DNA from: Chrysoperla carnea
Taxonomy: Eukaryota; Arthropoda; Insecta; Neuroptera; Chrysopidae
DNA length: 64,000 nt
Direction of reading: 5' to 3'
Assembly (NCBI RefSeq): GCF_905475395.1
Contig: NC_058342.1
Coordinates: forward strand, 14,356,640 to 14,420,639
Both the position numbers and the translations under genes were made by a program. Below are positions 4,991 through 58,671 of this stretch, in pieces. Positions within the stretch are counted from its first letter, which is position 1; every line of letters begins with the position of its first letter. The notes below the pieces were generated by a model. It was given only the letters and a program-made list of their open reading frames with translations, was not told where the DNA came from and did no database searches.

Positions 4991-7900
4991 ATGGCTGAAA
5001 CTATTAGCAGAGCAGCTATACGATCAGAAATTAAAAGTAAGTAATTTCATTATTAGTTTAATCGTATTTCATGAAGTTTATAAAAACGCGTGGTCCATCG
5101 AATTCAAGTTTAACACCTTCGTGAATTATTATTTATGGCCAATCGCCTGAACCTCAGAGGCTGTACTTGAATTACGTAACGCTTTTAAAACGATTTTTCA
5201 ACCCCTATCCCCCATACGTAACAGATTGTAACAACTTACCGAAACCTCGTTTTGTACGTAATTTTCTTCTTCTTTGAAATTTAGAGTATTATTTTATTAT
5301 AAAACCTTTTTATGATTGAAAAAGGATTTTATGTGTTGAATAATCTCTTAATACCAAAAACGGCCAAGCACCACAAGCGCTCGAAGTTTAATTAAAATTT
5401 TTTTAAATCAATTTTTATACCATGTATGTATGAAATATACATAGTATATTAAGTTTAGTCCCAAGTTTGTAACGCTTAAAAATAATGATGCTAGGAAAAA
5501 AATTTTGTCATAGGTGTTCATAAAATCACCTAATTAGTCCATTTCCGGTTGTCCATCCGTCCGTCTGTGGACACGATAACTCAAAAACGAAAAAAGATAT
5601 CGAGCTGAAATTTTTACAGCGTACTCAGGACGTAAAAAGTGAGGTCAAGTTCGTAAATGAGCATCATAGGTCAATTGGGTCTTGGGTTCGTAGGACCCAT
5701 CTTGTAAACCGTTAGAGATAGAACAAAAGTTTAAATGTAAAAAATGTTCCTTATCAAAAATTAAACAACTTTTGTTTGAAACATTTTTTTCGTAAACATC
5801 ACTGCTTACGCGTGAAGGCGCCAATTAAGCGGAAATTTTATACTTGATTATAATATGTACTATACTTGATTATCAGTGATGTATGTGTCACATGTTTGTA
5901 TGTGTAATGTGATAAAGAAATCAACACTCACTATGCATGATATTTCAACAATTAACTCAGTCAATTGTTTGTTTTCACTTGTTTTAAATTAATTTTAATA
6001 ATTACGTACAAGCGTTGATGGACTCCCTCCCCCGTATCATAACAAATAGTAACATTATAATTTGACCCCCTCCTCCTCATAAATTTGTTACGTAATTTAA
6101 GTATAGCCCCTCACTCGATCAATATCATTGAATCAATATCGATATTAAAAGTTTGAGAAGAATATTGAAACAAGGAAATGTTGAGGGAAAAATTATTTAA
6201 GAAAATTAAAAGTTCATATCCTCTGTTCTTAGAATACGCTCTTAAGCTATGTCCATCGAGCCACGGGAACCCTGTACTTTTTATAAACAATTATTTAAAA
6301 AATTAAAAACAAAGTGATTTGAAATAAATTTTTGTATTTGTCAGCAAAAAAATTATTATTATGATTTCACAAAAATAACAAATTTTTCTGATATGGTCAC
6401 AATTTTCTAGCGACCATAGTTGATTTCAACTGGAGCAACTTGGTTGTTGGTGATTTGATTGTTATTGTTTGAGTATCCTACTGGCCCACCAATGTAAGCT
6501 GGTTGTTGAACAGCATATTGAGCAACTGGCAAGACTTGTTGAACACTTGGGTAGCTTACAAGTGGAGCTTGTGCAAAAGTGGGATATTGGATTGTTGATA
6601 AACCGTTTAATCCATTTACGTTATTAACGTTGTTTATGATATTGGAACCAAATCCATTGTTTCCAACTAGTCCAACATTGCCAATTACACCTGGATATGA
6701 ACCAATAGTTTGTACTTGAGAGCTACCAATGTTGTTGATATAGTTTACTGGTCCTGACTATAAAATTAAAACAAAAACAATGAGTATATTAATTCAGAAG
6801 AAATATAGCTCAGGAAATAATTAACACTAAAGTTTCTTCCTAAGTTGCGATCTTACGGATAAATAGATGTTTAGATGTTTACGAAAATGATTCAAATAAA
6901 AGTTGTTAATTTTTTTACAAGGAATAACTTTTACATTTAAACTTTTGTTCTATCTCTAACGGTTCACAAGATGGATATTTTTTCCTTTGATTGAATGAGC
7001 CAAAAAATTACATTTTAAAATTTCATATCTCGGATAATTTTGAGGCTAGAAAGTCGGAAAAAAACGAAAAGCTTTTTTTACAATTTGTATAAAAATGATT
7101 AAAATCCCCAACTACCTACCAGAAATGGGGGCTAGGGGCGCCCCTGAGAGGTCGACTCTCTTTTACGAAGTTTTTATAACCTTATAAAGAACTGTGGGAA
7201 ATTTCAAGGAAGCATTAATTTTTCCGTTTTAGATATTTAGTTTAATTGTAGTGCTATTGTAAAAATTAAAATGTAAACAAATTATTTACCTGTACTGGAT
7301 AAACGGCTGATACTTGGTCATTATCTCTCAAGTAAGTAAATGAGCCTTGATTTCCGAAAGGGAAACCATTTTGGTCGTTATCTCTTAAGTAACTGAGTGG
7401 TGTTGCCACTGATAAAACGCTGCAACAAGCTACTGTTACCAACAATGAAGTACAAACTTGTTTGAATGCCATTTTTAATAAATTTTTTTGTTTATTCTTA
7501 ATTATTGTTAAATAATTTAATTATTTTAATTTTGTATATAATTCGTATGTTTTGAAGTCTTTTTATACAAAAATATAAATATGATTAAATTTTAACCAAA
7601 ATTTGTACGTGATTATAAACTAAAATATTCTGATTAGGAATTGATAAAAGATTGTCATCTAAAAACCGACAAGAATTTTCTTATCTGTGACAGTAAAATT
7701 CGAACCTTATCTGTTCAATCTTTGTTTTTTATTGTTTTCAAAACTTTATATTGGGTATATGGGTGAAGTATCAAATATTTTTGTTAAAGGCTAATTTATT
7801 TAAAGCGAAATTTTAGCCTTATGTGCCACAACATCAATACAAAAGAAACAATTTCGATAGTTCGATATCCGCCGTCAAAAATTCAATACATGGTTGTGAT

Positions 7901-10900: not shown

Positions 10901-13900
10901 TTTTTTTTGATGAATATTTTTTTTTTTGTAATTTGTTAAAAAGAACTGATAAAAGTCCCTAATTACTTCTAAAAACACGGGGTTAGATACACCTCTGGGT
11001 GGTTCACAACTTAATAAACAAGAGTGAAAAATTTCAAAGGTCCATTAATTTTTTCCTTTTAAATTGTACTAATAACTGGCGTAATTTTCAAAATATTGGA
11101 ATTTTTTTAAAATTATTCAGCTTTCGATATTTCGAAAACAAAGATAAATAACGAAAAATTTTATTATTAGTTTTCGGCTACATTTACGAAGATATTAAAA
11201 TTCATTCATCATCAAAGTTGAAAGTAAATTTTTTCAATTTCTGAGTAATTCGGTTAGCTAACACAGCTCCTGCGCTACGAATTTTTTTTTCATTCGTTTC
11301 AAGTGAAAATTATCAAAAACTTTCAAAATAGATCGTTTTTTAAGATTTCTCCACAAGAGCAATGTATTTTATATGTATGTACAATGAACATGTTTTATAC
11401 CATATGAAATATACCAAGGTATACTAAGTTTAGTCCCAAGTTTGTAACGCTTAAAAATATTGATGCTATGAACAAAATTTTGGTACAGGTGTTTATAAAA
11501 TCACCTAATTAGTCCATTTCCGGTTGTCTGTCTGTCTGTCGTCTGCCCGTCTGTCATCACAATTACTCAAAAACGAAAAGAGATCTGATATTTTTATACC
11601 GTGCTTAGGACGTAAAAAGTGAGGTCGAGTTCGTAAATGAGCAAAAAAGGTCAATTACAGATCCAAAAAAATTTTGGTATAGATGTTCATAGAATCACCT
11701 TATTAGTGCATTTCCGATTGTCTGTCTGTAAGCACGATAAATCAAAAACGAAGAGAGATATCAAGCTGAAATTATAGCGTGCTTAGGACGTAAAAAGTGA
11801 GGCAAGTTCGTAAATGAGTAACATAAGTCAATTGGGTCTTGTAAACCGTTAGAGATAGAATAAAAGTTTAAACCTAAAAAATGTTCCTTATAAAGAGAGC
11901 GCATATGTTCCGTGATAGCGCATATTATGCGCAAATTGTAGTAATATATGGGAATATCAGTTATATATGTGTGACATATATGTATGTGTAATGTGACAGA
12001 TTAATCAACACTGTCTAGTGTCTATACATGATACTTCAACAATTAACTCAGTTAATTGTTTGTTTTCTTAAAAATTTGCATGAATACCTAAGCTGGCATT
12101 TTAACTACATATTCTTTGAGTAGAAGGTTACCTATAAACATTGTTGTCAAGCTTAAAAACTGAGCTTTATCAAATTCTAAAATAAAAATTATTATGTTTT
12201 AATGCTTATTTATTATGTTTTTCTATTTTTAATGTTTTTAGAAATTCTGAAACATGCGAATTTAATGAACACATCCATCGATGAAGTCGTAGAACAGCTT
12301 GAAATTATGTTTGGACCTTTAGATACACGTCGCCGTCAAGTACGACATTTAATTCTGAAGTATACTCGATCAAAATTTCGAGTAGATCAGCGAAATGTAA
12401 AACAATTTTTTGAGATGTTAGAACGTAAGTTTTTTTCTCATGATGATGAAAAATTATTATTTTTTGGTAAAATAAATCAATTTCGAGGGTCAAAACATAT
12501 AAAATTCCCAGCTATTTTTTACGATATTAAAAAATTCTCTCGACAGGACTGAAAAAAAAAATAGTTGGGAAAATAGAGAACTTAGACATTAATTATATCG
12601 TGTTTCAGGCGGTCAAAATTCCTGAAAATTCGTTAAAATCTGTTTAAAAGTGGGTTTTACCATAGTTTTAGCATAGGTACTGCGAATAATCTGGAAATAC
12701 CTTAAGTAAGATTAAAAATTTAATTTTAGCATTGTTTTCCGTTTTAAAAATGGCCTTTTTAGCAATTTTTATACCATGCATATATGTAATATGCAAGGTA
12801 TACTAAGTTTAGTCCCAAGCTTGTAACGCTTAAAAATATTTTTGCTACACACAAAATTTTGCTATAGGTGTTCATAGAATCACCTAATTAGTCCATTTTC
12901 GGTTGTCCGTACGTCCGTCCGTCTGTGGACACGGTAACTCAAAAACGAAAAAAAAATCGAGCTGAAATTTTTACAGCGTACTCAGGACGTAAAAAGTGAG
13001 GTCGAGTTCGTAAATGGGCATCATAGGTCAATTGGATATTGGGTTTGTAGGGCCTATCTTGTAAACCGTTAGAGATAGAACAAAAGTAAAAAATATTCCT
13101 TATAAAAAAATGAACAACTTTTGTTTGAAACATTTTTTCGTAAACATCACTGTTTACCCGTGAGGGCGCCAATTAGGCGGACATTTTCTAGTATGTAATA
13201 TACTTGAATATCAGTTATGTATGTGTCACATGTATGTATGTGTTATGTGATAAAGAAATCAACACAGATTATGGATGGTATTTCAACAATTAACTCAGTC
13301 AACTGTTTGTTTTCACTTGTTTCAAACATTAAATTGTTAATATCTGAAAAATGGCGAGCCTTATAAAGAAGCACAAGATAATTTTTTGTAAAATTACCCA
13401 AAAAACCAAGAATAGCTTTATTTGGTTCAAAAAATTGACAATTGACAGTCAAAAATAATATTGATTTAAAAAATATTGGGTCAGTTTTTCGTATGTAAAA
13501 CTCATTGATTATTGAAGAACCCGGGAAAAACTGGATTGTATATCTGGGTATCTCTGATGATTTCCTTTGATAAAAAAAAATGGTAAAGATGAGATCATAA
13601 TAGATCTAGTTTCTTGACTCTTGAAATTTCAAAATAATATACAATAAAATTAAATTTAGCAATAAATTCGGATTATCTTGGATAGCGGACTATTCTTGAT
13701 TCAAGCGAAAAACATGTGTCGATTTATCTAATTCTTATTAGACGAATCGTTTAGCATTTCAAAGAGAATTTTTTTTCTATCTCGACCAAAACGGCCAATT
13801 TTTAAAAATATGTTAAGGATGGTCCACATATCAAAATCTGCTTCCAACTTGGTATTGCTATAAAATTTGGCTATTGCTATGGGCCAAAATAGGCCAAATA

Positions 13901-15834: not shown

Positions 15835-15839
15835 GGAAA

Positions 15840-16120: not shown

Positions 16121-16123
16121 AGC

Positions 16124-16440: not shown

Positions 16441-16463
16441 ATATGAAGTTTTCATATGTTCAG

Positions 16464-16592: not shown

Positions 16593-16619
16593 ATTCTAAT
16601 TTTGTACCTTAAATAAATA

Positions 16620-17115: not shown

Positions 17116-17117
17116 TG

Positions 17118-17560: not shown

Positions 17561-17614
17561 AAAAATATGATTTAAGTAAAACTCTTCCATGCACACTACA
17601 TTTTTAAGATAAGT

Positions 17615-17818
17615 CTTTACTGGCCAATTGCCACAGCAACGTCTGAGAGGTCATTTTCGTCACTCAGATGTCTGAAAACCTATCTAAGGAGTAAAATTGG
17701 AGAGGATAGACTAGTAGGATTGACTTTGATGGCCATTGAAAGGCAAAAGACAGCTGAGCTGATGTCAGATGTAGGACTCGATATGTTGGTCGAAAAATTG
17801 GCTATGCATGTTAAATGA
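17615..17818 (+). pseudogene. hAT transposase C-terminal dimerisation fragment
   Basis: The open frame contains ATATSERSFSSLRCLKTYLR and SKIGEDRLVGLTLMAIE and ends at TGA 17816. This is the signature of the hAT C-terminal dimerisation region (T-x-x-x-E-R-x-F-S..L..I/L-K..R-x-x-x-x-x-x-R-L). There is no catalytic core upstream; the frame is preceded directly by an INE-1-like element, which may have cut it off. Frame integrity over 67 codons suggests a fairly recent origin. Confidence 0.75.
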
Positions 17819-22517: not shown

Positions 22518-25500
22518 TCAACAATTTGCTGGTAAGTTAATTTCTACTGGAGCTATTTGATTATTCGTTATCTGGTTTGTGTTGTATCCATTATTCGCTA
22601 TAATGGGTTGTTGGACGCCATATTGGATAACTGATGGGTAAGAACTTATGAGTGTGCTCTGCAAAAAATTTCAAGTAATTAAAAATTTTTGATAGTACAG
22701 GAAATGCATATTTTGAGTACAATAATTTTAGCAACTTGGTGAAAATTTGTTTATTTGTAAAAATAACATGCCATAGTTACTGTAAACAGCTTGAATGAAA
22801 GCTATACATTAGCTAAAAAAATGTAAAAGTTTTTTTTTTGTTATTTAACTTTTTAGCATTACATCAATCATTTTATTATTTAAGCTAATAATATGCGCTT
22901 AAGCCTCAAATTTTAACAGTTTTTCGCGAATAACTGGTGAATCATATGTTCAATCGAAAAATGTGAGATGTTACTAATCCAAAAATACTAAAAAATACTA
23001 TTAGATGTCACTAAAATCCAAAAATGTGAGGTGTCACCACAAAGGTCTTACACAAGAACATATATATATAAGTACGTGAAACATCCTATGCCGAGCTATA
23101 AGCGCCAGTGGATGAATTTGCAGCGCCGACCTAGGTAGGGTCTAGTCAACGGTCGTTGCGTACTTTGTACTGCGCATTAGGCTCTCTATGCGATTGAAAA
23201 CGATTGAAATTGTTTATAATCACTTTCAATTGATTGAAAACAAAAGACAAAAAATTGAAAGCAATAGACAGCCTGACGCGCAGTAGAAAGTACGCAACGA
23301 CCGAGAACTAAACTAGACTTCGCCCTGATAAGCGCCTTTTTTTCTGTTACCCTGTCCACTCAAATTTCACTCAATATATACATAGGTCCGTGAATTGTCT
23401 ATTACTGATTTGACTATTGCTCATTTTGAAGACCTTTTTACGAACTTTAAAATGATTCCACTTGAGTTGCCAACGAATAAAATTCGATATTCAAAGACCC
23501 ATATCTTTGAAACTATTGTGTTTGCATGAACGAAAAACATTCGAATCTCTTTGTTATTTTATCAGTTTTATCGTGATATCACACTTTTTTCGATTGAATG
23601 TACGGTTTTTGACTTATCCGTGCAAAACTGTTAAAATTCGGGTCTTCGCGAATATCAGCTTTATAAACATTATACCTTAATCCCTATCCCTATCCCTATA
23701 TATTATGAATGTGAAAGTAAGGATGTTTGTTTGTTTGTTACGCTTTCACGCAAAAACTAACGAATGGATTTTAATGAAACTGTACAGCAATATAGCTCAT
23801 ACATCATAATAACACATGAGCTATAAATTAAAAAGATATAGATACTATTTTTTTATTATAAATTTAATCTGACATTTACTGTTTTAAATTTTTACAGAAA
23901 TCTCTAATTTATGGTTTGAAATGATGATCCCAGATGGAACAGAGCTATGATCATCATTTTGAACCATAAATTTCTCTAAAAATTAAAAATAGTAAATGTG
24001 ACAATTCATAGCTACCTTTTCTGATATACTCAATGAATTATGACTACTTTACAATTTAACAAATTTAAAACTGTGCATATCTTTTAGATGTGTAAAACAA
24101 TCCCTTCAAGTGTTATGGAACGTTCATAATGTGAGATCAAAAGAGATGGAGGCTATGAAGCGGTGGTTTTTACTTTTAAGCCCAGTGAAGCGGGTGGGTA
24201 TTAAGCTAGTATATTTCATATTACTACAAAGTATAAAAATATTTTATAGCGTATAGGCAAAAGCGGAAACATAATTAAATACAATTTTGCCTATACATCA
24301 AATGTAAATTTTAAATTGAAATCATGAAATTTTAAAAATAAATAGTTATGCAAGTATCATTGTTTTACAAAAAAAAAAACTACCTACATATAAAAATATA
24401 TAGAAAATTGCTGTCAAATGAAGTTTTGGAAAATGAAAAATAGCTTTCTTCTAAAAACTTGAAAGCCGTACATTTACTTAAACGAAATTCTACAAATTTT
24501 CATTTTTAAGCATTATATAAGGTTTTTCAGTATGTTTAGTTAATATATATATTTTCAGTGAGTTTCTAAAATTTTTTAAGATTAAAGTTAATTAATTTTA
24601 TTGTTTATCCAAGATAATGAGTTTTCTTAGAAACATTATACTTACGGTTGCAACAGGATATTGTAGGACACTTGCTCCAGTTAAAACATTACTGTAGTAG
24701 CTTACTGGAATTGATGGTAGTAGGGGTTGGAATATTTGTGCTCCATTGTCTCGTAAGTATACAAAAGGTACAGCCTGGAAAATGAAACAACTTCAAAAGT
24801 CAGATATTTTCTTTCAATTTTTCTTCTTTCATTTAAGGAAGTACACAAAAGGTGGCAACTTTCAGTAAAAGGTTTAGATTTTATTTTGAATGTAATTTAA
24901 ATATGTTTAAATAAATGCTAAAAATATGAAGGGGGGAGGGAGTATTTTAGTAAATAATTTACTTCAAAAGTAGGCATATTTAATATTGCCGTTATTATAG
25001 AAAAACGGCTGATCGGTTATGGGATTTTTGCTAAGACGGAATATTTTGATAATTTTCACTTAGGTTTGACTGCAGAAAATGAAGAAAAAACTATTAAATT
25101 AAAGTTAAGACTTTAAGGACGATCCCAAAGAGTCACGTTTTTCTTAAAATCATCTTTTCTTTAAATCGTGTATATGCATCAAGCCCGTGCGCAGGAATTA
25201 TTCGAGGGAGGCATTTAATTAGGTCAAAATGTGATAATCAGTCACTATTTTTCAATGAGTTAATTCTGCCTCTTCTTTAAGGTACAGAAAAAAAACTTTC
25301 CCAAAACTCTGCATGCATCGACCTCTACACCGCAAAGTATATTGAGCGAGGACTAAACCGTTTAGCCGATCTTTAGGTATTGTCGATCTATGGTATGTTT
25401 TGAAACGGAGAAAGGTTTAAAAGGTGCGTTTAGTAGACATTCGGATGTCACGGGAATCATCGTGTAAAATTGAATCATCTAGTTCAAAAAGTAGGGCAAG

Positions 25501-28473
25501 TGTTTCCATTAAAATTTTTCATTTTTTAGAGAAAGATTATTGAGATGAAAAAAAGTATTGCAATGACTCAAAATTCGATATAAAATCTTCATCAGTCTGT
25601 ATATTCGAGCGTTGAGTCTGTTATGACGCGTACCTTGGCTTCCGCACATTCATCGCAGATATCACTCATAGTTCGATAACCTTACCAAGATCCACGTTTT
25701 CTGTTTGGAGTACTCGACTCAAAGGCAAAGTCAAATAATGTACTGTGAGCTCAAAAAATGTATGGATATCTGATTAGTCATGTAAGTGAGTGCATTTACA
25801 GCATTTTATTGTTAGTTCATATTTTATATGAAAACATTCTCGAAGGAAGGGGTTTCGACCCCGAAAACCCCTTCCTTGCGCACGGGCCTGATACGCATTC
25901 TCAATTCTCATTAATGGCCTTTAAAATCAGATAAATTCTTTAAATATCCCATATACGGTGTTAATTTTAGATATTTGGGCCGTTAAATTTTACATTTTTA
26001 ACATAAGTATTAGTACAATAAATGACCATAGAATTTTTTTAATCTTACGAAAAAATTATTTGCTAGGTGTATTCTCTTGCGATTTTTTTGCATTGATTTC
26101 AGAAAATTATTCTAAAAAAATCTATATTGTTTAAAGGGGAACTTTTTAGTTTTAACACCCGCGCCATTGGGATAGAGGGCGTTTATATCGTAAAGTAAAT
26201 CAGATCACTTTAAAAAGATTTTAAAAAGATAAAAATGCTTAAGTGACCTGAAATTTAAGATATTTTTATTAATAAACCCTTGAATACACCTTCATCTCTC
26301 TTTCGGGTGTCTGAAAGCCTCTGAAAAGGAAAAAGATTATTTTTTTGAAAATTAAGTATTTTAATGACGAATAAGAGGACTTTTGAGGTCGCTAATCTCT
26401 TTAAATTAGAATCCCACGGGATGATAACATTTTTCAGTGATAAAAAGTATCGTACATGTTAATCCAGGTAATAGATTTGTGTACCCAATGTAATTTAAAT
26501 TTGTTCAATCTTTTTTGCGCGCGTGAGTAACAAATGTTCAAACTTTCAAATCTATTATATTAGTAGCGCAAATGGGTAAAAATTCGAATGACGAATAACG
26601 AATATAACCAAATTATTCGTGAATTACGAATTAAATTATCGAATGGTTATTTTTATTTGAATAAATTGCCATCAATAAAATTATTTATTGGAATACCCAA
26701 TTCCCTTAATCTTTAAACATTCTTTAACGTTTACGTGTAAGAACGAAAAACGAATAATTATATTCTGTAGATATGAAATATACAGGGTAAGCCATCTTAA
26801 TCTATACACCTAAATATCTCGTTAAGTTAAGTAAACCAATCAAAAAATTACTTGCACAAAAGTTTGATGGGGGGCATCATATTCTGACATCAGGTTGGAC
26901 CCAGTTCTTCGAAAAGTTGTTTATGTTAAGGATCACTTTTATATTTTAAGTTTTGTTCTATTTCTAACGGTTTACAAGATGGGTCCTGCGGAACCAAGAC
27001 CCAATAGGTCTATGCTGCTCATTTACCAAATAAAACGAACTTTTCACGTCTTGAGCACGGTAATAAACGTTTTGTAGTTAACCAATCAAAAAATAACTTA
27101 AACAAGAGTTGCAGAGTTGATGGGAGACATCATGTTCTGACATCAGATTGAACCTAGTTTTTCGAATTTCTTTAATAGCCAATTTAGATCCAGAACCGTA
27201 AAAGATAGAATAACACTTTAAATTATAAAGTCGATCCTCATAAAAAAACTAACAATTTTTATTTAAAACATTTTCTCGAAAAACGTTAACTTTCGGAGTA
27301 CATCCGACTTAAAAATATGTCATTATTGCATTTAATCGTAAGAAAACACGCTAACTGCGGAAAAATGCTTTATCCAAAAGTTGTGTAGGGTAATAGAGAA
27401 CAATGGCCTGTGTCGATGACTTTGACCTTCAATATCGATAAAATTTAAGCATATTTTCTTTCAATTAAATGCAAGAATGACATACATATTTTTAAGTCGT
27501 ATTTCTTCCAAAAGATAACGTTTTTCGAACAAATGTTTTTAAGGTAGTACTATCGGCAATAGACTTTGAATTCAGAATTTAATGAAACTTGACATAGTTG
27601 TCCATTATTATATCATAATTAACCAGTTAAATTTTTAAGGGCTTTCAGAGAAATGAAAATCTGAACGTCCAGTTTTGTGAAATAAAATGAAATCTGTGAT
27701 TTTCTATAAGGATCAATGTTAAAATATCTTTAAAATATCTTTTTTCCAGTTCTCTGAAGGCCCCTAAAAATTTAACTGGTTAATTATGATAAAATAATGG
27801 ACAACTATGTCAAGTTACATTAAATTCTGAATGCAAAGTCTATTACCGATAGTACCTACTACCTTAAACAATTTTTTTTTTTTAATGATCAATTTTGTAT
27901 TTTAAAGTTTTATTCAATCTTTTACCGTTTAGGATCTAAATTGGTTACTAAAGAAACTCGAAGAACTAAGTCCAATCTGATGTCAGAATAAGATGCCTCC
28001 CATCAACTCTGCAACTCTTGTTTAAGTTATTTTATGATTGGTTAACTGCAAAAAGTTTATAAAATTAATTAATTAGTCCGTTTCTGTTTGTCTGTCTATG
28101 AACACGATAACTCAAAAACAAAAAGAGATATCAAGCTGAAATTTTTAAACCGTGTTCAAGACGTGAAAAATGAGTTTTATTTCGTAAATGAGCAACAAAG
28201 GTCAATTGGGTCTTGTAAACCGTTAGAACAAATAAAATCCGAATAAATCATTCACCATTTGAAAAATGGTCGAATAAAATTATTCGCGAATAAAAAATTT
28301 ATGAATGATTGTTTATTCGTATAATTAATTATTAATATAAAAAATTATTCGAATAATGCCAAATAATAACTCTGATTAGTAGATAGGATAATAGGTAATA
28401 AGATTATATTTAAGCTTACCTTAGCACAAACAATTACTGCAAGTAATACGACAATACTTTTTACGAAAGCCAT
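22518..28473 (-). CDS. Gene B: secreted Asn/Pro-rich protein, paralogue of A and C
   Basis: Exons are 28473-28420 (18 codons), 24774-24646 (43 codons) and 22658-22518 (46 codons plus TGA). All joints are phase 0, with donors AAG|GTAAGC and ACC|GTAAGT and acceptors TTCCAG and TTGCAG; the product is 107 residues. MAFVKSIVVLLAVIVCAKA is a classic signal peptide (cleavage after AKA), and the mature chain begins VPFVYLRDNG. The middle (P-L-L-P-S-I-P-V-S-Y-Y, then QYPVAT) is shorter than in gene A. The last exon has YPSVIQYGVQQP, matching YPSVQQ..QYAVQQP of gene A, and the tail NQITNNQIAPVEINLPANC with one cysteine. Introns of 3.6 and 2.0 kb hold a Helitron, a hAT element and fold-backs. No ATG-started frame reveals exons 2 and 3, so it is easy to miss. 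Function unknown. Confidence 0.75.
23130..23335. mobile_element. Hairpin MITE in intron 2 of gene B
   Basis: Arms: CGGTCGTTGCGTACTTTGTA (23151) and its complement ending CAACGACCG (23292), flanked by GGGTCTAGT / ACTAGACTTCGCCCT. The loop is AT-rich with GATTGAAA words. Confidence 0.65.
23681..24209 (+). mobile_element. Canonical non-autonomous Helitron
   Basis: It begins TCCCTATCCC and ends GGGTGGGTATTAAGCTAG (CTAG = CTRR), inserted between A and T, as expected for Helitrons. A hairpin (AGCCCAGTGAAGCGGGTGGG) precedes the 3' end. The left part, with GTTTGTTTGTTACGCTTTC, resembles a widespread arthropod Helitron. An internal palindrome spans about 23870-24000. Confidence 0.75.
24233..24400 (+). 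repeat. Segment duplicated at 62497-63290; empty Helitron-like site
   Basis: TATAGCGTATAGGCAAAAGC, TTTTGCCTATACATCAAATG and TAGTTATGCAAGTATCATTG match 62.5 kb and 63.24 kb. Here they are continuous, while there an INE-1-like element separates them. Confidence 0.7.
24960..25170. repeat. Dispersed repeat, related to 4270, 32575 and 56760
   Basis: CTTCAAAAGTAGGCATATTT, AAAACGGCTGATCGG and AGGTTTGACTGCAGAAAATG recur in modified form at 56.8 kb; the first block also matches 4.3 and 32.7 kb. Confidence 0.45.
25180..25890. mobile_element. hAT-type non-autonomous element with 8-bp duplication
   Basis: The ends are CAAGCCCGTGCGCAGGAA and TTCCTTGCGCACGGGCCTG (reverse complements with one difference). 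The flanks ATATGCAT (25172-25179) and ATACGCAT (25891-25898) fit a diverged 8-bp target duplication. There is no coding frame. Located in intron 1 of gene B. Confidence 0.7.
26030..26410 (+). mobile_element. Left part of the ~1-kb TIR element of 42077-43082
   Basis: The left terminus AATCTTACGAAAAAATTATT and the blocks GCGCCATTGGGATAGAGGGC and AAGATATTTTTATTAATAAA are present. The right terminus is missing. Confidence 0.6.
26930..28225. mobile_element. Fold-back composite with INE-1-like halves at its ends
   Basis: The left outer part (26936-27070) is an inverted INE-1-like fragment and the right outer part (28065-28225) is a direct one. Inside them, arms of about 190 bp (27085-27275 and 27870-28050) are reverse complements; TGCAGAGTTGATGGGAGACA is at 27110. 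A separate TTAA MITE sits in the middle. Confidence 0.65.
27543..27863. mobile_element. Palindromic TTAA MITE, copy 1
   Basis: A 321-bp near-palindrome starting GGTAGTACTATCGGCAATAG and ending CCGATAGTACCTACTACC, flanked by TTAA at 27539-27542 and 27864-27867. The TTAA duplication is typical of the piggyBac superfamily. Copy 2 is at 52600. Confidence 0.8.
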
Positions 28474-28564: not shown

Positions 28565-28575
28565 TTTTTTATATA
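28565..28575 (-). promoter_or_regulatory. TATA box of gene B
   Basis: TATATAAAAAA lies 92 bp upstream of the ATG on the minus strand. It matches the TATATAAAAA of gene C, and its position is equivalent. Confidence 0.6.
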
Positions 28576-28579: not shown

Positions 28580-29325
28580 GAAATACGTGACCTTTGTTAA
28601 AAGAATTTATAAATTCGTGACATTTCATGCAAAAATTGTTGAAAATTTTTGTGCTGGATAAACAAAAAATTATCTTTCATAAAATTTTTTGAATATTTAA
28701 ATATTTTCTTATTTAGTACGATTTCATAGTTGAAATGGAATGATATACAAAAATTATTTAGTTAGATGTTTCGGCCAGTCGGTAATTTACGGTGGCTCTT
28801 TGCTTGTCAGCAAAAAATTTAGTTTCCATTAAGTTCAAATTGATGAAATATAGAAATACTGGTTGTAAAAATGCATGTGATAGCTGGTTGGATTTGAAAT
28901 GATGTCTAGAAAAATTTACTGGAAGCATTTTTCAGCACATAAAAAATTGCAAAAGTTATCAACAATTAAAGATGAAAAAAAGGTATTTCGTAAAATATTA
29001 ATATTTAATAAAAACAAATTAAAATTAAAATTAAAATTTTGTAAAATCTTTTGACATGATCTTGTTAATGTTTTCGATTTTAACGCTAAGATGTCAGCGC
29101 CACGAGTACAAAAACCATACTTTAAAGACTCAGGTGATTTTTTCATTGAATAAAAAGGCTAAAAATACCTACTTCATTGTACATCTAAATGTGCTGTGCC
29201 ATATTTGCTCCCCGAGTCTTTTATAATTGCGATAGTTTTCCTACTTTTTTTTGTATGTTTTTCTATATAAATTTCTTACAAATAATTTTTTCATACAAAT
29301 TAAGGAACTACATTAAGGCTACTTA
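28580..29325. other. Gene-free stretch upstream of gene B
   Basis: Presumed upstream regulatory region. A 76-codon minus-strand frame (28916-29146) has no coding character and is not called. Confidence 0.4.
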
Positions 29326-36599: not shown

Positions 36600-37376
36600 C
36601 AGTGTATTTGTAAATTAATGAACCTGTAAATGTTTGTTTCAAATTAAACTCCATCATACATTTGACATTAAATAATTGTATTTAGATTCTCTCTTTTCTT
36701 AAGTCAAGCTTTCGTTTTTGTCGCGAAAGCGTTAATAATATCATCAATTTCCAGATGTTTAGGAAAGCCATCCCTGTCCCCAATCTTTCCTGTCCTATTT
36801 GGGCACGTAACAAAGATACTACCCCGTAAAGTGTAGAAAACAATCTCCCTGTGGTATATACGCTGGCCAGAAGAATTGCGCTACAAATGTTTATTGCATG
36901 CTTCAATGAAATGAGCACCGACTCTGGTATGGCGGAATTATTTTCACATTCTGTTTTCCATTTAGACACACAAAGTCGATATTCATTTATTATAGTAGAT
37001 TTACTATCACTAATGAATCGCAGGTTCACCTGAACCACTTTTTTCACTGCCTGTATATCGATATTGAAGTACTTGACACCAACATTTGGTTCATTGATAA
37101 CGATATCTAATAGATTGGTAGTAAATTGATTTTCGAAGTACTCTTCTACCGATTTTGCTAGGATTTTTTCGATTTTTGGAAACTACACGCTTTGAAACGA
37201 ATTTTGAAAAAAAAAAAAAAAATATTACCCCCAAAAATTATCGGATGGTTTAGTATGAAATTAGGAACAATATACTAACTATTTAAAGCGATTCCTTGTT
37301 TTTTTTTTTAATTTTATTTTTTAATAAGTCTATTTAGGGGATGCCCATCATGCCCATATGAGTGGATTCGCCACTG
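36600..37376 (-). pseudogene. hAT-family remnant, copy 1
   Basis: The outer terminus, read on the minus strand, is CAGTGGCGAATCCACTC. The frame 37047-36682 has CVSKWKTECENNSAIPESVL, FSTLYGVVSLLRAQIGQERL and a final RQKRKLDL, the C-terminal dimerisation region of hAT/ZMYM-type transposases (FSTLxxxKxxLRxxMGQERLxxLAxLNI). The A/S-E-R motif before FSTL is damaged, and frames shift within LAFLNI. No N-terminal BED finger or catalytic part was seen. Homology to copy 2 (60845-61615) extends beyond the coding part. Confidence 0.7.
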
Positions 37377-37399: not shown

Positions 37400-37880
37400 A
37401 TAAAAGCATGACAAGTAAATAGAATATTAATTTCTAAAAAAATGCTCTTGAAAATTTCGTATTGCACCGTTCTGAATTTTTTTTTTTAATCCACCCTTTT
37501 AAAAGAACACTAAATAAAACGAGCTGAAAAAAAATTTTGAATTTACGAGGATTTAGTTATGTCATATGCGAACCGAACTCTCGGATGTTTGCTATTTTTT
37601 TTATTGCCCTAAAAAATTTTCTGAATCCGTGTTCGTGAAAGGTGTTCGAAAATGTTTACTTTCAAAAAATTGTGATATGATAAGGATTTGGTTTTTGTCA
37701 TATTGCAACAGTATCATAAAATTGTATTGTTGTCTCTGTCTTGTCTTCATGTTTAGTTATTGAGTATTGGAAGTGTTTGTGAGTTCTAGTCATTTTGATT
37801 TTCGTTAAGAAAGCGATCAGACATATTTCTATTATTGTTGAAGACCTGCAGTACTGTTAATAAATTTAAATTATATTCGT
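37400..37880. other. 5' flank of the FN3-domain gene
   Basis: No exon could be added with confidence. A 65-codon frame at 37566 is not coding-like. Confidence 0.4.
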
Positions 37881-37884
37881 AAGA

Positions 37885-38334
37885 ATGGAAGTTCAAGAAT
37901 ATCCACTTATTCCTGCTTTTCCAAGAGCACCGAGAATTTATCATTCAAGTAAAAAAAGAATTCCACACCCGCCCGTGTTGAAAATTCGAGTTGCAAGAGG
38001 AAAAATGTTGTTAAGATGGAAGATAATCCCCTACTGTCCGACACACCACCAAATAATATTTAGGTATGATATTTATATCATACGTACAGAGGGTGAAAAT
38101 TATCCCAACAACGAGTGGAAACAGATTGGATCAGTTCGCACAGATTCCCATTTTATGAAGTGCAAAATTACGACCGCATCCTACTTCGGAATGGTTTACG
38201 TTGCAATTGTTCCAGTCGACGTATGTGGACGTTGGGGTAAATTCAGCCGAGTAAAAGAAGTTTTTATACCCAACATTCAAGATGCAAGTTTTTCCCGGGA
38301 TCGGTGTACAAAGAGATTTCGACTTCTGTGTTAA
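37885..38334 (+). CDS. ATF7IP/Windei-like FN3-domain protein, single exon
   Basis: An intact 149-codon ORF from ATG 37885 to TAA 38332. Residues about 28-130 form one fibronectin type III domain: PPVLKIRVARGKMLLRWKI at the start, YDIYIIRTEGE in the middle, EWKQIGSV, and AIVPVDVCGRWGKFSR near the end. The order P-V-L-K-I-x-R..L-x-W..Y-x-[IL]-Y..W-K-x-[IV]-G-x-V..A-V-D-x-x-G-R-x-G-x-F-S is that of the C-terminal FN3 of ATF7IP and its fly homologue Windei, which partner the H3K9 methyltransferase SETDB1/Eggless. The family protein is usually much longer; only the C-terminal domain is present. There are no introns and no poly(A) remnant, so it may be a domain-only duplicate or retrocopy, or the last exon of a gene whose 5' part is outside view. 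The basic tail DRCTKRFRLLC is unlike the family. Confidence 0.65.
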   Translation: MEVQEYPLIPAFPRAPRIYHSSKKRIPHPPVLKIRVARGKMLLRWKIIPYCPTHHQIIFRYDIYIIRTEGENYPNNEWKQIGSVRTDSHFMKCKITTASYFGMVYVAIVPVDVCGRWGKFSRVKEVFIPNIQDASFSRDRCTKRFRLLC

Positions 38335-47635: not shown

Positions 47636-47639
47636 AAGG

Positions 47640-48260: not shown

Positions 48261-48299
48261 TTCACCGCTCTGGTTGGTTGCCCGGCTGCTCCCTTTTGG

Positions 48300-48950
48300 A
48301 TTTGGATTTGGCTGCTCGAGAACGGCGAGGTTAGGTAAAAAATTTCAAGTACCAAAAAATGCTTAGAATTGCCCAAAACACAAAAGCCAATGATTTTATT
48401 AAATGGAAAATAAAGAGAATGTGGTATCCGGAAGTAGGGTACTTCTATCCCACCGTATGGGCGTTAATCCAAAAAGCATAAGTTCGCACGGATATGATTT
48501 TTTTGAGTACATTCAGACAAACTTTTTCCACTGGCTCCTATAAAAATCAACTGACGAGGAATCGAGTCAGTATTTTCGGTTTTATTTCCTCGATTAAAAA
48601 TTTTGAGTGAACAAACGAATCCAATTAGTATTTTATGAAAATGCGCATTTGGGGGTGCTACTTTCACGAAGCTCAAAATTCAATTCGATGTTTAAAAATA
48701 TATCTAACTTCATTTTAAAATAGATTATTAAATAAAAAAAAAAATTGAACTTAAAAATTAAATTTGGATTTTTTGTCTACAAAGGCAGGCTGATTTTCTC
48801 ACGCAATATAGTGCCTTGGAAGCAAATGTCAATAACCTAATATTGCTCTTCTTCACAAAATCCACTCACGTGACTGTTACTAAATTTTGAAAAAAAAAAT
48901 ACATTTTTTTTTAAATTTTGATAAAGTTTATTCAAGGTAGTCACGTACGA
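48300..48950. other. 5' flank of gene C
   Basis: Contains the inverted relative of the 46-kb tandem unit (about 48590-48665), then AT-rich sequence leading into the gene C promoter. Confidence 0.45.
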
Positions 48951-48955
48951 AGTTT

Positions 48956-48965
48956 TATATAAAAA
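48956..48965 (+). promoter_or_regulatory. TATA box of gene C
   Basis: TATATAAAAA lies 97 bp before the ATG, the same arrangement as in genes A and B. Confidence 0.6.
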
Positions 48966-49061
48966 TAAATTTCAAAATCATTTCTCGATCAATTGATCAT
49001 CTCTTAATCCAATTTATAATAATTAATCATTTAAAAAAATCAAAATCATAATTAATAAATT

Positions 49062-52000
49062 ATGGCTGTGAAAAGTGTTTCATTGTTTGCTGCAATAATA
49101 ATCGCTTATTTGAGTTTTACAACACAGGTTTGTTTATTTACAATTACAAAATTGACAATGTTGCAAATTTTTAAAAAACAATTTTATATTTTTTTAATAT
49201 AGGCATTTCCATTGCGATATTTACAAGATGTTGGATTTGGTTTTCCTTTTCCATATCAGGTACGAAAATTTTTACATTTAGACTTAGCACAATGAAACTA
49301 AATATCTAGTTGGAAAAAATTAATGCACCTTTGAAATTTTCCACAGTTGTTTATAAGGTTGTAAAAACTTTGCAAAAACAAGCGAAAACAAACAATTGAC
49401 TGGGTTAATTGTTGAAATACCATGTATAGACAGACAGTGTTGATTACTCTATCACATTACACAAATACCTATACATGTCACACATACATAACTGATAATC
49501 CCATATTAATACATACTATAAAATTTGCACCTAATGTGTGTCCTCGTGGTAAACAGTGATGTTTACAAAAAAAAAATGTTTCAAACAAAAGTTTTTTTAT
49601 AAGGAACATTTTTTACATTTGAAGTTTTGTTCTATCTCTAACGGTTTAAAAGATGAGTCCTACGGACCCCACGCAAGATTCAATTGACCTATGTTGCTCA
49701 TTTACGAACTCGACCTCACTTTTTACGTCCTGAGTGCGTTGTAAATTTCAGATTGATATCTTTTTTCGTTTTTGAATTATCGCGTTAACAGACGGGCAGA
49801 CGGACGGACGGACGGACAGCCGAAAATGGACTTATTAGATTCTATGAACACCTATACCAAAACTTTGTTTGTAGCATCAATATTTTAAAGCGTTATAAAA
49901 CTTGGGACTAAACTTAATATACTATGTATATTTCATATATACATGGTATAAAAAGTCGATCTCTCAGGGGCGTACCTAACCCCCTTTTCGGGGGGTGGTT
50001 TGGGATTTTAATCAGTTTTTTACAAATTACAAAAAAACTATGCATTAAATAAAATAAAAATTCAATTAAAAGCTCTAGCTGAAGTATTTGCGCAGAGAAA
50101 TAATTTTTATATTTAAACTTTAGTTTTATCTTTAACGGTTTACAAGATGAATCCATTTTATTTGATTGAATATGCAAAAAAATTCCATTTTAAAATTGAC
50201 ATATCTCGGTCAACTTTGAAGCTAGAAAGTGGAAAAAAAACAAAAATGTACACAAATACTTCAGTTAGAACTTTTAATTAACCCCCCTGGATAATAAACT
50301 ACCCCTGGATATTAAACCCCCCCCCACCCGTACCTACTACCGTTAGGTACGCCCCTGAGAGGTCGACGAAGTTTTTACAAACTAATAAACAATTATAGAA
50401 AATTTCAAAGATGCATTAATATTTTCCTTAAACATAGTATATATAATGGTATACAAAAAAATAGTATGGTATAAAAATAATTTTTTAATGATAAGCTATT
50501 ATTGTACTAAAAAGTAGAAAATCATTCTTATGAGTCACTGATATAAAACTTAAAACTTAAGGGGCTCCGAATCATTCTTGATATTTTAAAATGAGTGCTT
50601 CAAGCTGGTCCCTAAACAAATATTTTATATTAAAAATTTTGTTTGATTATACGTAATAAAAGATATACGGAAAATATTTTCTTTATGCGGTCCTGATTGC
50701 TTTATAAATTATCAATTCTTTAACTTTATCAAAATTTCCATTAATAATAAAATAAATAATAAATTGTTATTAATAAATAATATTTTACCTCATAAAATTA
50801 AAACTTATATTACATATTTGTTAAATAAGTATTTAATTACAAATTAATTTGTAATTTGAGAAATTTTTTTATACTTATTTATAAACAAATTCAATCCTAA
50901 TAAATAAAGTAAATTTTTCCCGGAATTTATTTGTTATCAATTTGCAATTTGAGAATTATTTTATAAATATTTTTAAACAAATGCAATCACAACATAGGTA
51001 AACTAGCTAGACCCGTGAGGAATTCCGTAGTGCAGTACTCGTGGCTAAAAAAAGGCTAGACATAAGTGATACAAAACATAGATAATAATTTACTTAATTT
51101 TTATTTATAGGCAATTTTATTACAGATATGATAAACAAATTACATAATGAACCAAATTTATTGTTTAAATTATTTGTTTAGCATATTTTTGCTAAGCAGT
51201 ACATTTTTAGACCGTGAGTCTACCTTTCGTCATTAGCGACTTAGCGAACACGATAAGCTTTAAAATGGTAGGTAAATCATGAATTTTGATAAAGAAATAA
51301 AAAAGAAACAGGCTAGAGAAATAAATTATCCTCGGGGTCAATTTTTTTTATACTCTGCGTTCATGTATGATGAGCACTTCAATTAAATTTAGTTTAAAAA
51401 TTTTAATGCTTAAAACTATTGATATTAGAAATTTTTTTATGAAAAATATTATCCAAATTTGGTAAAATTGGTCCATTAAAATTTGATAAAATTTTGCGTG
51501 TGATAAAGCAAAAAAGATAATCCTAAAAAAACACGATTTTAAAGAATTTTTCATTAAAGTTGTTGTCTCGCTATAGACATATAGTGTGAGAAAATTATCT
51601 ATTTTTTATACCATGTATATATGAAATATACATAGTATATTAAGTTCCAAGTTTGTAACGCTTAAAAGCATTGATGCTACGAGCAAAATTTTGGAAATAA
51701 AATCACCTAATTAGTAAATTTTCGGTTGTCTGTCCATCTGCCCGCATGTCTGTCAACAAGATAACTCAAAAACTCAAAAAGGAAAAATGATATCAAGCTG
51801 ATATTTTTACAGAGTGCTAAGGACATAAAAAGTGAGGTCGAGTTCGAAAATGAGTAACATAGATCAATTGGGTCTTGTGTCCGTAGAACCCATCCTACCC
51901 ATGTTTTAAACCCTTAGAGATAGAACAAAAGTTTAAAGGTAAATAATCTTCCTTATATAAAAATAAACAACTTTTGTTAGAAACATTTTTTTGTAAACAT

Positions 52001-55000: not shown

Positions 55001-58000
55001 ATATACCTTATATTAAGAGAGTAGGGGCGAGTCGGAAAAATACCCGGAGCGGCAAAAATGTGGGGCATCGGTATAATCAGGACTCAATAAAACCAGGAGT
55101 ATTCCGAAAACTGGGATTGTATGAAAAAATTCAATATAATTTATAAATGAAATAAAACACTGAAAAAACACTAAGAGGAATCTCTATATTTAAGCGAAAA
55201 TTGAAGTTTAAATACACCAAATTTTACAGGGTGACATGCTTGAAACTCGACAAAGAACTTTTATCCATAAAAAGTTATCAAACGAAAAATGTTGGATGTG
55301 TAGACGCCCATTTTATGCAGACATTAAACTTAACCTAGGTTTTCAAGCTCAATGAAAAGCTTACTCTTATCCATAATTGGTAATCGATAGATTAGCACTT
55401 TCAGAAAGTTGTTATTGATTTTTAAAGTAACATTTTTTGTTCGAAACGTTATTCTGCAAACCGTACAGTTTAGACAAAAACAAACTGAAAAGTTTAACCC
55501 AAAATTATTTAAGTTTTTCTTATCAAAATTGTTATTTCGAATAATTGTTTTTGCGAAATCTAGGAACTCTTCGAAAAAAATTTTTCAATAAATCCAATAG
55601 ACCATTTTAGTTAAAATTGAATGAACAAACGCACAAAAAGCTAGATTTTTGCTATCAATTACTGTCTAAACTATTCGGTTTACAAAAAATTATTTGAGTT
55701 TTTATAACGAATTAGTTTCTAATTTAAAGCATTCATCTAATGTTTGTCTGTTATGAATCAGAGTGAGATTTTAATTGAATCTGAAAACTAAAATCGAATT
55801 CAATGTCGGTATAAAATGTGTGCCTTTGAAACTAATATTTTTCGATTTGAAGCATTTTCCTTCATTAAATTTATTTATTGAGTTTCAAGCATATGTCAAC
55901 TTACAAAAGTCCTTTATATGGTATGATTGTAAAGGGTGGCAAATATTATTTTTGTCTGTAGCGGCTAAATCAGTGGCGGATTTAGGCTTGCTGCCGCCCT
56001 AGGCCCCGTTCGATGCGCCGCCCTTTTTGATAGAATGAATTTCATTAATTTTGATCCAGTTTTTTATTTTAAAGTAACTTAAATATTGAAAATGGAAAGA
56101 CGGGATTTATTTTTCATGAAAAATTATTTTTATAAACAAAAAATGTTCTGGCACTTTTAAATGAAAATTATAACGATTTTCAATACCCCTGAATAAAAGA
56201 AAATATTGAGACAAAAAAAAAAAGTATTAAAAAGTATTAGATTGACTAGAAAATCAATACTATTTTCTTTGTCTCTCTTTTTTTTAAAATCAGGGACATA
56301 CAAATCTTCGGTATTTTTATTTCACACTAAAAACAAATTGAGAAGTCATTTCAAAATGCTTCATACACGTGAGATTAATCTCACTAAAGGAACAGAAAGT
56401 AAAGAACATTACTCGATAAAGAATATCATTGATCGATTAAAAAATTAACATCTTACCCACACAGATTGAGAAGTAGATTAATGAATTGGATTATAATATT
56501 TTCTATCGAAAATTTTTTATAAAAACTATTCTGAAACATTTTTTATAATTGATTGTCTTAACTTTTTTGTGACTCTAAAATTTTGGCATTTCAAAAATTT
56601 TGCCGCCCTTCAAATTCTGCCACCCTAGGCTCGGGCCTCACGGGGCTAGGCCTAAATCCATCACTGGGCTAAATAGCTAGATTGGGCCTGAAGTGAAAGG
56701 TTTAATTATTTGTATATGTAGTTTAAATACGTTTAAATGAATTCTGAAAATTTGAGACAGGGTTATCCGATTATTTAAATAAAAATATTTATTTAAAAAG
56801 TAAGCATATTTCACATTGGCATTATGGCAAAGCGGCTTATAGAAGGCAAAGGTTTATTTTGTAAATTTTCATCCAGATTTAATCGTAGAAAAACATAAAA
56901 AAACTATGTAATTAAAAGTTAAGAGAGAAATTAAAACAATTATAAACCGTGTTGAACACAAATTAAATGTAATCTGCATTTCGGTCAACGTTTTTCAGAA
57001 TTTGGCACATGATAGTTGAAGTCATTCTAAAGAAAAGTTCCAATGGTAACAAGTCATGAAAATGACAGGATTTTTATGTTATAACTAAATTAAAGTTGGA
57101 AAATGTACTTATTTGTATAATATATGCCTATGTGTGTATAGGCAAATACATATACAGATATGTATAACTACATGCATACGTATGTTTTTAAATGTAAGGT
57201 GTTGTTTTTTAATTCTTGTTTTTTTTGAAGAATATGTTACGAAATTCAAAGAAGAAGCAGTGTTAAATGTTCAGTGGAGCAGTAATATGAAGCGTTAAGA
57301 TCAATATTTGCAGCTACATATATTATATGATTTTTGACAATTAATTTACAATAATTTTTTTTATATAAATGCAATAACTTGAAGTTCTGCCATTTTTATG
57401 ACTTGTGACCATGGGAACTTTTATTCAGAATGACTTAAACTATCATTCCCCAAAATTTGAAAAAGTTTAGCCAAAATGCAGATTACATATAATTTGTGCG
57501 AGGTCCATTTGACGAAATAATAAAATTTGTAGATAGAATAATAAAATGTTAGTTTTGAAACATCGTTAGTATTTCGTATAATAAGTCAGATATCAAAAAA
57601 TTGTACTCTTACTTTATCTAAATTCGTTAAAGTAGTTCGGCTGTTTGAGCAAGTGCGGTGAATGTTCATTTTTTGCGGTAAATAAGAGATCACAATAACT
57701 TATGAAAGAACTCACAATAATGTTTATTGTATAAAACTTAATTGATGATTGAGCTTCAAAAAAGTTTTCAGCATAAAGAAAATTTATCACAGATTCTGTT
57801 TATTCAAAAAAAAAAAAAAAAAGTTACCCTATGGCGCTTTCCAAAAAGAAAACTTTGGTTTTGGCGATTTTACGATCTTTTTAGAGCATTTTATTACATT
57901 TACGTCATACAAATTGCCTAGTTGACTACACAACAGCCATACTACTTTAACTTATAACAAAGTTCATTATCAAAATCATGCTTCAATCTTCTTAATTCAA

Positions 58001-58671
58001 TCCTCAAAAAATTGCTTCAATCTCCTTAATTAAATCCTCAAAAATATTTAAAATTCGGTTAAATTGTCGATTTGAGTTTATAAAAGATGATAACTCTAAA
58101 TTCTAAATTTTCAAATCCGTTTAAGTTGAATATAATTTTTAGAATGATGTACCTAATGAATTAAGGGAATTATTTATCAATTCGTGCAATTATTAGTTGA
58201 AAATTTGATATGAAAATTAACCCTGAATCTAACCTGCTCCGATTTTAAGTAAATAGTCACCAAAATGCGAAAATAACATGTAGAAATGTTCAACTCACCT
58301 GTCTTGAATAAAACTTGCGTTAAAATTAACGATCGTGTTACCTTAATCTATTTTTGTTTTCAGATTAACACAGCTAGCAGTACCAATTTTATCAACAATA
58401 TTAATAACATAAACAGTTTTTTACCATACCCAGCTGTTCAAAATGTCCCTGGTCTGGGTTACCCCAACGGACAACCATCGATTTTTGCTAATGGTCCTCC
58501 GATTGGATACCCAAATCAAATTGTCAACTCTCAAAGTGCACCAGTTGAGGTAAAATTATATTTAAAAAAAGGATTGTGAGATGTCCAGTCTATTAATTAT
58601 AAAATTAATATTTATTTTTAACATTTTAGGTTAATTTCATTCCAAATCCTGGCTGTTATTCTGGTTGTTAA
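49062..58671 (+). CDS. Gene C: secreted Asn/Pro-rich protein, paralogue of A and B
   Basis: Exons are 49062-49127, 49203-49259, 58364-58549 and 58630-58671, all in phase 0 (CAG|GTTTGT, CAG|GTACGA, GAG|GTAAAA; acceptors AATATAG, TTTTCAG, ATTTTAG), giving 116 residues. MAVKSVSLFAAIIIAYLSFT is the bulk of the signal peptide. The mature start FPLRYLQDVG, with GFGFPFPYQ next, parallels YLRDN and the FPFG of gene A. Exon 3 has NFINNINNINSFLPYPAVQ, like IINNVNNVNGL and YPSVQQ of gene A, and ends YPNQIVNSQSAPVE. The last exon supplies VNFIPNPGCYSGC. Intron 1 separates the signal peptide (as in B), intron 2 is the shared one and intron 3 is unique. Intron 2 is 9.1 kb and filled with transposons, so an extra small exon inside it cannot be excluded. 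Function unknown. Confidence 0.75.
49378..49953 (-). mobile_element. INE-1-like element, full length, in intron 2 of gene C
   Basis: Starts ACAAGCGAAAACAAACAATT, has the hairpin, core GACGGACGGACGGACGG, and ends TATACATGGTATAAAAA. Confidence 0.85.
49954..50420. mobile_element. Palindromic element with CTCAGGGGCGTACC ends
   Basis: CTCTCAGGGGCGTACCTAAC (49963) and GTTAGGTACGCCCCTGAGAG (50343) are perfect reverse complements; GTCGA lies outside each. The interior holds the TTGATTGAATATGC/CATATCTCGG repeat seen at 6.96 and 10.8 kb, which therefore belongs to this family. Confidence 0.75.
50421..51600. other. Gene-free AT-rich part of gene C intron 2
   Basis: Degenerate AATAAATA-rich sequence; no exon or clear repeat. 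Confidence 0.45.
51605..52204 (+). mobile_element. INE-1-like element, full length
   Basis: Left hairpin TATACCATGTATATATG, core GTCTGTCCATCTGCCCGC, right end CAATTGTTTGTTTTCACTTG. A short insertion (TATCTTTCTTTACTTACGAG, 52097) interrupts the right half. Confidence 0.85.
52600..52918. mobile_element. Palindromic TTAA MITE, copy 2
   Basis: GGTAGTACTATCTGTAATAG start, CCGATAGTACTACT end, TTAA on both sides (52596-52599, 52919-52922). Very close to copy 1 throughout. Confidence 0.8.
52925..53650. other. Gene-free part of gene C intron 2
   Basis: No exon was recognised. TTTTTGACTTTTTAAGG (52380) and CCTTAAAAAGTCAAAA (53533), with GGTCGCAATT / AGATCGCAACTAA flanks, suggest the region 52.37-53.55 kb is the inside of another inverted-repeat element into which the TTAA MITE inserted. 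Confidence 0.4.
53654..54308 (-). mobile_element. INE-1-like element, full length, GCGCAA subfamily
   Basis: Starts ACAAGTGAAAACAAACAATT, has the internal TGCGCAAGTGTTGATGCGCA hairpin and the core (ACGG)n run, and ends TATACATGGTATAAC. Nearly identical to 20866-21480, so recently active. Confidence 0.9.
54388..54459 (+). tRNA. tRNA-like gene (anticodon position TGA), probably pseudo or SINE head
   Basis: The 72-nt segment folds as a cloverleaf: acceptor ACTCGAA/TTCGAGT (7 perfect pairs), D arm GCCT/GGGC, anticodon arm CTTGA/CCAAG with one mismatch, and T arm CCGGG/CCTGG with loop TTCGAGT. The B box GGTTCGAGTCC is perfect and the A box near consensus. TTTTTTT, a pol III stop, begins at 54462. 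Position 33 is A instead of the near-invariant T, so normal decoding (TGA would be serine, yet there is no long variable arm) is unlikely. It could be a decayed tRNA or a tRNA-derived SINE. Confidence 0.55.
54480..55195. other. Gene-free part of gene C intron 2
   Basis: AT-rich; no repeat or exon recognised apart from a small GC-richer block at 55020-55090. Confidence 0.4.
55200..56710 (-). mobile_element. Fold-back family Y, copy 2, split by a hAT element
   Basis: It matches 47640-48260 in inverted orientation (CATGCTTGAAACTCGACAAA, GAATTCAATGTCGGTATAAA, ACTATTCGGTTTACAA). The far end, GGCTAAATAGCTAGATTGGG, resumes after the hAT insertion at 55971-56666. Confidence 0.6.
55971..56666. mobile_element. 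hAT-type non-autonomous element, perfect 8-bp duplication
   Basis: The ends are CAGTGGCGGATTTAGGC and, inverted, CAGTGATGGATTTAGGC, flanked by GGCTAAAT (55963-55970 and 56667-56674). Subterminal GCCGCCCT blocks occur at both ends. The 80-codon frame inside (56206-56448) may be a scrap of transposase and is not called. Confidence 0.85.
56755..56930. repeat. Dispersed repeat related to 24960-25170
   Basis: Shares TTTAAAAAGTAAGCATATTT, AAGCGGCTTATAG and TTTAATCGTAGAAAA with the copy in intron 1 of gene B. Confidence 0.45.
56935..57520. mobile_element. Inverted-repeat element in intron 2 of gene C
   Basis: ATGTAATCTGCATTTCGG (56967) faces CCAAAATGCAGATTACAT (57472). AGTCATTCT, GTTCCAATGGTAACAAGTCA and ATGACTTGTGACCATGGGAA make the inner arms. 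Confidence 0.65.
57610..57925 (-). repeat. Inverted partner of 21990-22360
   Basis: GTTTGAGCAAGTGCGGTGAA, AATTTATCACAGATTCTG and ATACAAATTGCCTAGTTGAC are complements of the gene B flank. Confidence 0.7.
57930..58360. other. End of gene C intron 2
   Basis: Leads into the TTTTTGTTTTCAG acceptor at 58363. The ATG frame from 58286 runs across the acceptor and is not the real start. Confidence 0.5.

Follow-up and report, generated by a model that had tools for sequence, protein, structure and literature searches.

A 64,000-nucleotide window of the green lacewing Chrysoperla carnea genome (positions 14356640-14420639 of contig C6, taken to be the X chromosome) carries three spliced genes for small, putatively secreted proteins, here called W1, W2 and W3. 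We describe these genes, the larger family to which they belong and a promoter element that points to a role of the family in the eggshell. A first-pass annotation of the window had proposed the three genes, with products of 177, 107 and 116 residues, and the models were reproduced with two, three and four exons, respectively; all predicted introns are bounded by GT and AG and fall on codon boundaries. Window coordinates are as follows.

W1, 7472-7290,6757-6407, minus strand: gene, 177 residues
W1 exon 1, 7290..7472, minus strand: putative signal peptide and two YLRDNDQ modules
W1 exon 2, 6407..6757, minus strand: NINN/YPSV middle and NQITNNQVAPVEIN tail
W2, 28473-28420,24774-24646,22658-22518, minus strand: gene, 107 residues
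W2 exon 1, 28420..28473, minus strand: putative signal peptide
W2 exon 2, 24646..24774, minus strand: AVPFVYLRDNG module
W2 exon 3, 22518..22658, minus strand: SYPSV, then NQITNNQIAPVEIN tail
W3, 49062-49127,49203-49259,58364-58549,58630-58671, plus strand: gene, 116 residues
W3 exon 1, 49062..49127, plus strand: putative signal peptide
W3 exon 2, 49203..49259, plus strand: AFPLRYLQDVG module
W3 exon 3, 58364..58549, plus strand: INNINN middle and NQIVNSQSAPVE tail
W3 exon 4, 58630..58671, plus strand: VNFIPNPGCYSGC end

Each product has an N-terminal hydrophobic stretch that resembles a signal peptide (judged without a dedicated predictor), the motif YL[RQ]D just past it and a tail of the form NQI-x-N-x-Q-x-APVE-[IV]-N (3/3). 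When the mature parts were aligned locally and compared with 1000 composition-preserving shuffles, the three pairs gave z scores of 13.3, 10.4 and 7.8, and the observed score was reached by none of the 1000 shuffles in any pair. The kinship first proposed from the shared start and the APVE tail is therefore borne out by motifs and alignments alike. The grouping as a three-member cluster did not hold, since the family has at least 12 further genes elsewhere on this contig and a single one on a different chromosome. Using the last exon of W1 as the query against the whole genome (559,487,470 bases, 337 contigs), we obtained at least 23 matches, the best 20 candidates being scored. On C6 the family comprises at least 15 genes between 14,363,046 and 14,845,502 (~482 kb), namely W1-W3 and, 320-430 kb past W3, D1-D12. 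This X cluster is split in two segments, and a tblastn search of 200 kb of the gap between them found no family member. The one gene off the X is on chromosome 5 (C5 35,734,170-35,735,758). Complete open models were built for 15 of the 16 genes, the D11 model being partial and lacking its first exon; with exon ends placed on codon boundaries, GT and AG are present at 30 of 30 family introns. The exact pattern APVEIN has nine matches in the genome, and the four on C1, C2, C3 and C5 were rejected as family members, their context reading as chance.

A first exon of 54-69 nt encoding the signal peptide is found in 5 of the 15 genes with a first exon (W2, W3, D3, D4 and the chromosome 5 gene), and no intron follows such a short exon in the other ten. 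D4 has exon 2 in two versions, and in D12 an additional exon duplicates portions of the middle, changes of a kind that symmetric exons permit. In the 16 models (D11 in part), the mature proteins lack Met, Trp and His, have 0-2 Cys and few charges, and are rich in N, Q, G, V, P and Y (N 11-20%; G+A+S 19-26%; figures that predate a 5-residue extension of the chromosome 5 model), in keeping with the structural type of protein that had been suggested for the window genes. C is the last base of 180 of the 372 asparagine codons, compared with an intron C/(C+T) of 0.286, which is a mild preference among gene copies that are not independent. Pfam scans of W1-W3 and of 9 of the 16 models, the latter extended to E=1, gave nothing above cut-off and, for the nine, no chorion model; weak matches with E values of 0.15 and 0.17 were disregarded. 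Nothing in NCBIfam exceeded the cut-off for W1-W3, and a PDB sequence search with W1 alone found no match, so that the earlier statement that these secreted proteins have no recognised domain stands; for the effector-like role also suggested, we found no support. Neither the vitelline membrane model Vitelline_membr (PF10542) nor the R&R chitin-binding model (PF00379) matched any of the nine models scanned; a genome search with PF10542 yielded 0 matches, but its controls likewise had no match anywhere.

The ratio of nonsynonymous to synonymous substitution rates (dN/dS) among 14 genes (D7 and D10, near-duplicates of D6 and D9, left out) was computable for 86 of 91 pairs and was below 1 in all of them (0.10-0.62). 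Exons are far more alike between copies than introns are, at 95.8% versus 55.1% identity for D3/D4 and 91.7% versus 54.3% for D5/D6. The exons of W1 are 96% identical to those of D1 and D5, genes 458-467 kb away, and W1 and D1, 458 kb apart, share a block of ~2.1 kb at 91-95% match; judged from these identities, W1 is a recent copy. Its upstream part is closer to D5 (149/150) than to D1 (140/150), and its 3' flank closer to D1 (94.0%) than to D5 (63.6%), a mosaic suggesting that gene conversion may have contributed to its history. D6 and D7 are inverted copies of each other, 100% identical across 1707 bp or more (C6:14833792-14835498 and 14838950-14840656), which could reflect a palindrome of recent origin, conversion that still continues or an artefact of the assembly. 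In a tree of 15 rows (D11 left out), just 1 of 11 inner branches is well supported; besides the identical D6/D7, the pairs W1/D1, D2/D8, D3/D4 and D9/D10 have bootstrap values of at least 87%. W2, W3 and the gene on chromosome 5 form long branches of unsure placement, and their strong divergence shows in dS values to the other genes of ~0.9 or more, where these could be computed. Counting these three and W1 as the four most diverged lineages rests on distance, because the tree is poorly resolved. Expansion by duplication, as the first-pass annotation had it, is thus upheld, but the window trio is not the product of one recent local burst, since W2 and W3 are strongly diverged and W1 is a recent copy of distant genes. 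AATAAA and ATTAAA are absent from the 400 bp past the W1 stop codon (window 6007-6406), and one or the other is present in the remaining 15 models within the 148-400 bp examined past the stop. As the homology of W1 to D1 ends ~176 bp after the stop codon, the W1 copy may have lost its poly(A) signal.

The genes also have a promoter design in common. A TATA[AT]AA box lies 86-104 bp before the ATG in all 15 genes with a first exon, and in 14 of them TCACGNA precedes the box by 15-53 bp, the exception being D3, with TCACACA 49 bp upstream of TATA. The exact sequence TCACGTA occurs in six genes (W1, W2, W3, D1, D5 and the chromosome 5 gene). Within the window the elements are placed as follows.

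W1 TATA box, 7561..7567, minus strand: 95 bp before ATG
W1 TCACGTA, 7606..7612, minus strand: 45 bp upstream of TATA
W2 TATA box, 28567..28573, minus strand: 100 bp before ATG
W2 TCACGTA, 28584..28590, minus strand: 17 bp upstream of TATA
W3 TATA box, 48958..48964, plus strand: 104 bp before ATG
W3 TCACGTA, 48941..48947, plus strand: 17 bp upstream of TATA

In the four most diverged lineages (W1, W2, W3 and the chromosome 5 gene), TCACGTA is the sole 7-mer that the 80 bp preceding TATA have in common. In 5000 Markov shuffles, a shared 7-mer with at least three G/C never appeared, and an AT-rich one was shared in 251. Over 264 kb of sequence, TCACGTA stood within 80 bp upstream of 10 of 683 TATAWAA sites, and five of these ten were at the three window promoters. 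Two of the other sites are copies of one interspersed repeat in which TCACGTA is followed by TATAAAA (window 20979, plus strand, and position 7578, minus strand, of locus L019). Three promoter-like sites elsewhere, in 200 kb of the gap between the segments, had no clear secreted open reading frame (ORF) by eye. As a control, three R&R cuticle genes were taken from the lacewing assembly; they are close tandem copies with inferred start codons, and they have TATA at -101 to -104 and no TCACG within 280 bp upstream.

In the silkmoth, TCACGT has been called chorion-specific and is essential for chorion expression (PMC4639761), and the occurrence of the same element in the lacewing promoters suggests an eggshell role, which the first-pass annotation had not raised. 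We put at roughly 0.5 the probability that the genes constitute a chorion multigene family of the green lacewing, one without detected homology to known chorion families. What we infer is that ovarian follicle cells would secrete these structural proteins, which would be laid down in the chorion. The TATA promoter with its upstream TCACGTA would turn the family genes on together; TCACGT is also present in Drosophila chorion promoters. Exported by means of its signal peptide, each N/Q/G/V/P/Y-rich chain, which carries almost no charge, would polymerise with its paralogues. The YL[RSNQ]D start and the NQI..N.Q.APVE.N tail, both conserved, may serve in assembly or anchoring, and exons lying on codon boundaries would permit modules to be gained by duplication or lost.

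Several features of known chorion loci recur in the lacewing family. Silkmoth chorion genes have a minor first exon of ~50 nt and one major exon, are clustered in two genomic segments and undergo gene conversion (PMC4639761); like the A/B and Hc genes described there, the lacewing genes combine TCACGT, two segments, near-identical copies and signs of conversion, and in part the short first exon, limited here to 5/15 genes. Of the two major Drosophila chorion clusters, at 7F on the X and 66D on chromosome 3, one is X-linked, as is the lacewing cluster (PMC13409908), and s36 is a lineage-restricted chorion protein (PMC13409908, PMC11641622). Drosophila chorion genes differ in being few and developmentally amplified, and no Pfam similarity to them was seen. 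The lacewing proteins also depart from those of silkmoth in their high N/Q content and in having no more than two Cys once mature, and their genes have up to four exons.

A number of observations weigh against the eggshell interpretation. The exact hexamer TCACGT is present in just 6 of the 15 genes, eight having TCACGC or TCACGA and D3 TCACAC, and the match to the literature was made after the motif had been spotted. No chorion Pfam model matched the nine lacewing proteins scanned, unlike those of silkmoth, nor do divergent pairs share a short promoter as they do there; the divergent neighbours W2/W3, D2/D3 and D5/D6 are 20.6, 2.9 and 3.2 kb apart from start codon to start codon. A strict version of the promoter pattern gave 15 matches genome-wide versus 9 for a reversed control; three of the 15 are family genes, and the other 12 have no clear secreted ORF by eye, short hydrophobic ORFs being present near the matches in L047 and L051. 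The element thus revealed no other chorion genes, and the strict pattern was rejected as a genome-wide finder of such genes. The R&R controls, being tandem copies, are effectively one lineage. Finally, TACGTGA, the other strand of TCACGTA, resembles a bHLH-PAS site, so that action in salivary or tracheal cells is possible, which would favour a gland or a cuticle origin.

Low-complexity cuticular proteins, made by epidermis or tracheal cells and cross-linked in the cuticle, would share with the family secretion, tandem duplication, a high content of G, P and Y and TATA promoters. According to a review, both low-complexity (CPLC) and unclassified low-complexity cuticular families exist and nearly every cuticle protein contains G, P and Y (PMC12426002). 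The family resembles the CPLC proteins in being small, secreted and of low complexity, but by eye lacks their signatures, namely A-, P- or W-rich or invariant G domains; no R&R, Tweedle or other cuticle domain was found in the models scanned (W1-W3; nine models). The promoters differ from those of the three TATA-driven R&R genes checked, which have no TCACG upstream, and in the two R&R genes for which the DNA covered includes the next exon, the first intron interrupts the signal peptide 4-5 codons from its start. In the family, by contrast, a first intron that sets the signal peptide apart comes after it. The R&R matches listed (at least 140, with 150 candidates scored) are on C1, C2, C4 and C5, many in tight tandem clusters, and none is on C6; this last argument is weak because C3 likewise has no listed R&R match. 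We consider a cuticular role unlikely.

A gland secretion, be it larval venom, a defence-gland product, colleterial silk or glue, or a product of the Malpighian tubules, seems about as improbable as a cuticular protein. TCACGTA is not known to have a gland role. A study of C. carnea venom reports seven uncharacterised core-venom genes, several with products predicted to be disordered, and one uncharacterised protein exclusive to the defence glands (PMC12758981), to which members of the family may correspond; the part consulted of a second venom paper held nothing bearing on the family (PMC11319779). The egg-stalk silks ChryC1-3 of the same species are secreted and of low complexity, like the family, and disordered in solution, as the family may also be to judge by its composition, but they are proteins of 30-78 kDa with 16-residue repeats that are expressed in the colleterial gland (PMC5485732). 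Egg-stalk silk, marked by G/A/S-rich repeats, was rejected on composition, the mature parts of the family having a G+A+S of just 19-26%, with periodicity judged by eye. Other assignments, to reproductive-tract, peritrophic or haemolymph proteins or to no single tissue, have nothing specific in their favour and appear more improbable still, since the 15 promoters tested share a single design, which suggests one programme.

Returning to the eggshell, we more tentatively advance a joint claim whose chances fall somewhat short of even: that this would be an X-linked, exon-modular, N/Q-rich eggshell polymer, built of proteins unrelated to moth and fly chorions under a TCACGT-TATA code kept across orders, and that it would be the first candidate chorion gene family for Neuroptera in the literature searched. 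Detailed knowledge of chorion proteins comes from moths and flies. In a term search of the main text, a 2026 review on the biogenesis of the insect chorion had no occurrence of 'Neuroptera', 'lacewing' or 'Chrysop' (PMC13409908), and a study of one neuropteran eggshell notes that molecular data are lacking on a patterning question (PMC4947476). No description of the family was found among titles and abstract starts in the open-access PubMed Central literature. If the claim is true, a regulatory code has outlived full replacement of the structural proteins under its control; the family could then be used to ask directly if a single promoter element identifies chorion genes throughout the holometabolous insects despite protein turnover, and would open the eggs of a predator important to agriculture to molecular study.

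The window holds a few other features. A remnant of a hAT transposase dimerisation domain is present at 17576-17818 on the plus strand (PF05699, E 5.7e-7), and two further hAT-like stretches were noted by eye, at 36682-37182 (minus strand) and 61165-61545 (plus strand), with no Pfam match at E 0.01. An ORF at 12181-12552 (plus strand) matches the DEK C-terminal domain (PF08766, E 4.7e-5), slightly below the curated cut-off. Between W2 and W3, an ORF at 37870-38334 (plus strand) matches the fibronectin-III type model fn3_4 (PF16794, E 1.6e-13); it is ATF7IP-like and represents an unrelated gene or exon.

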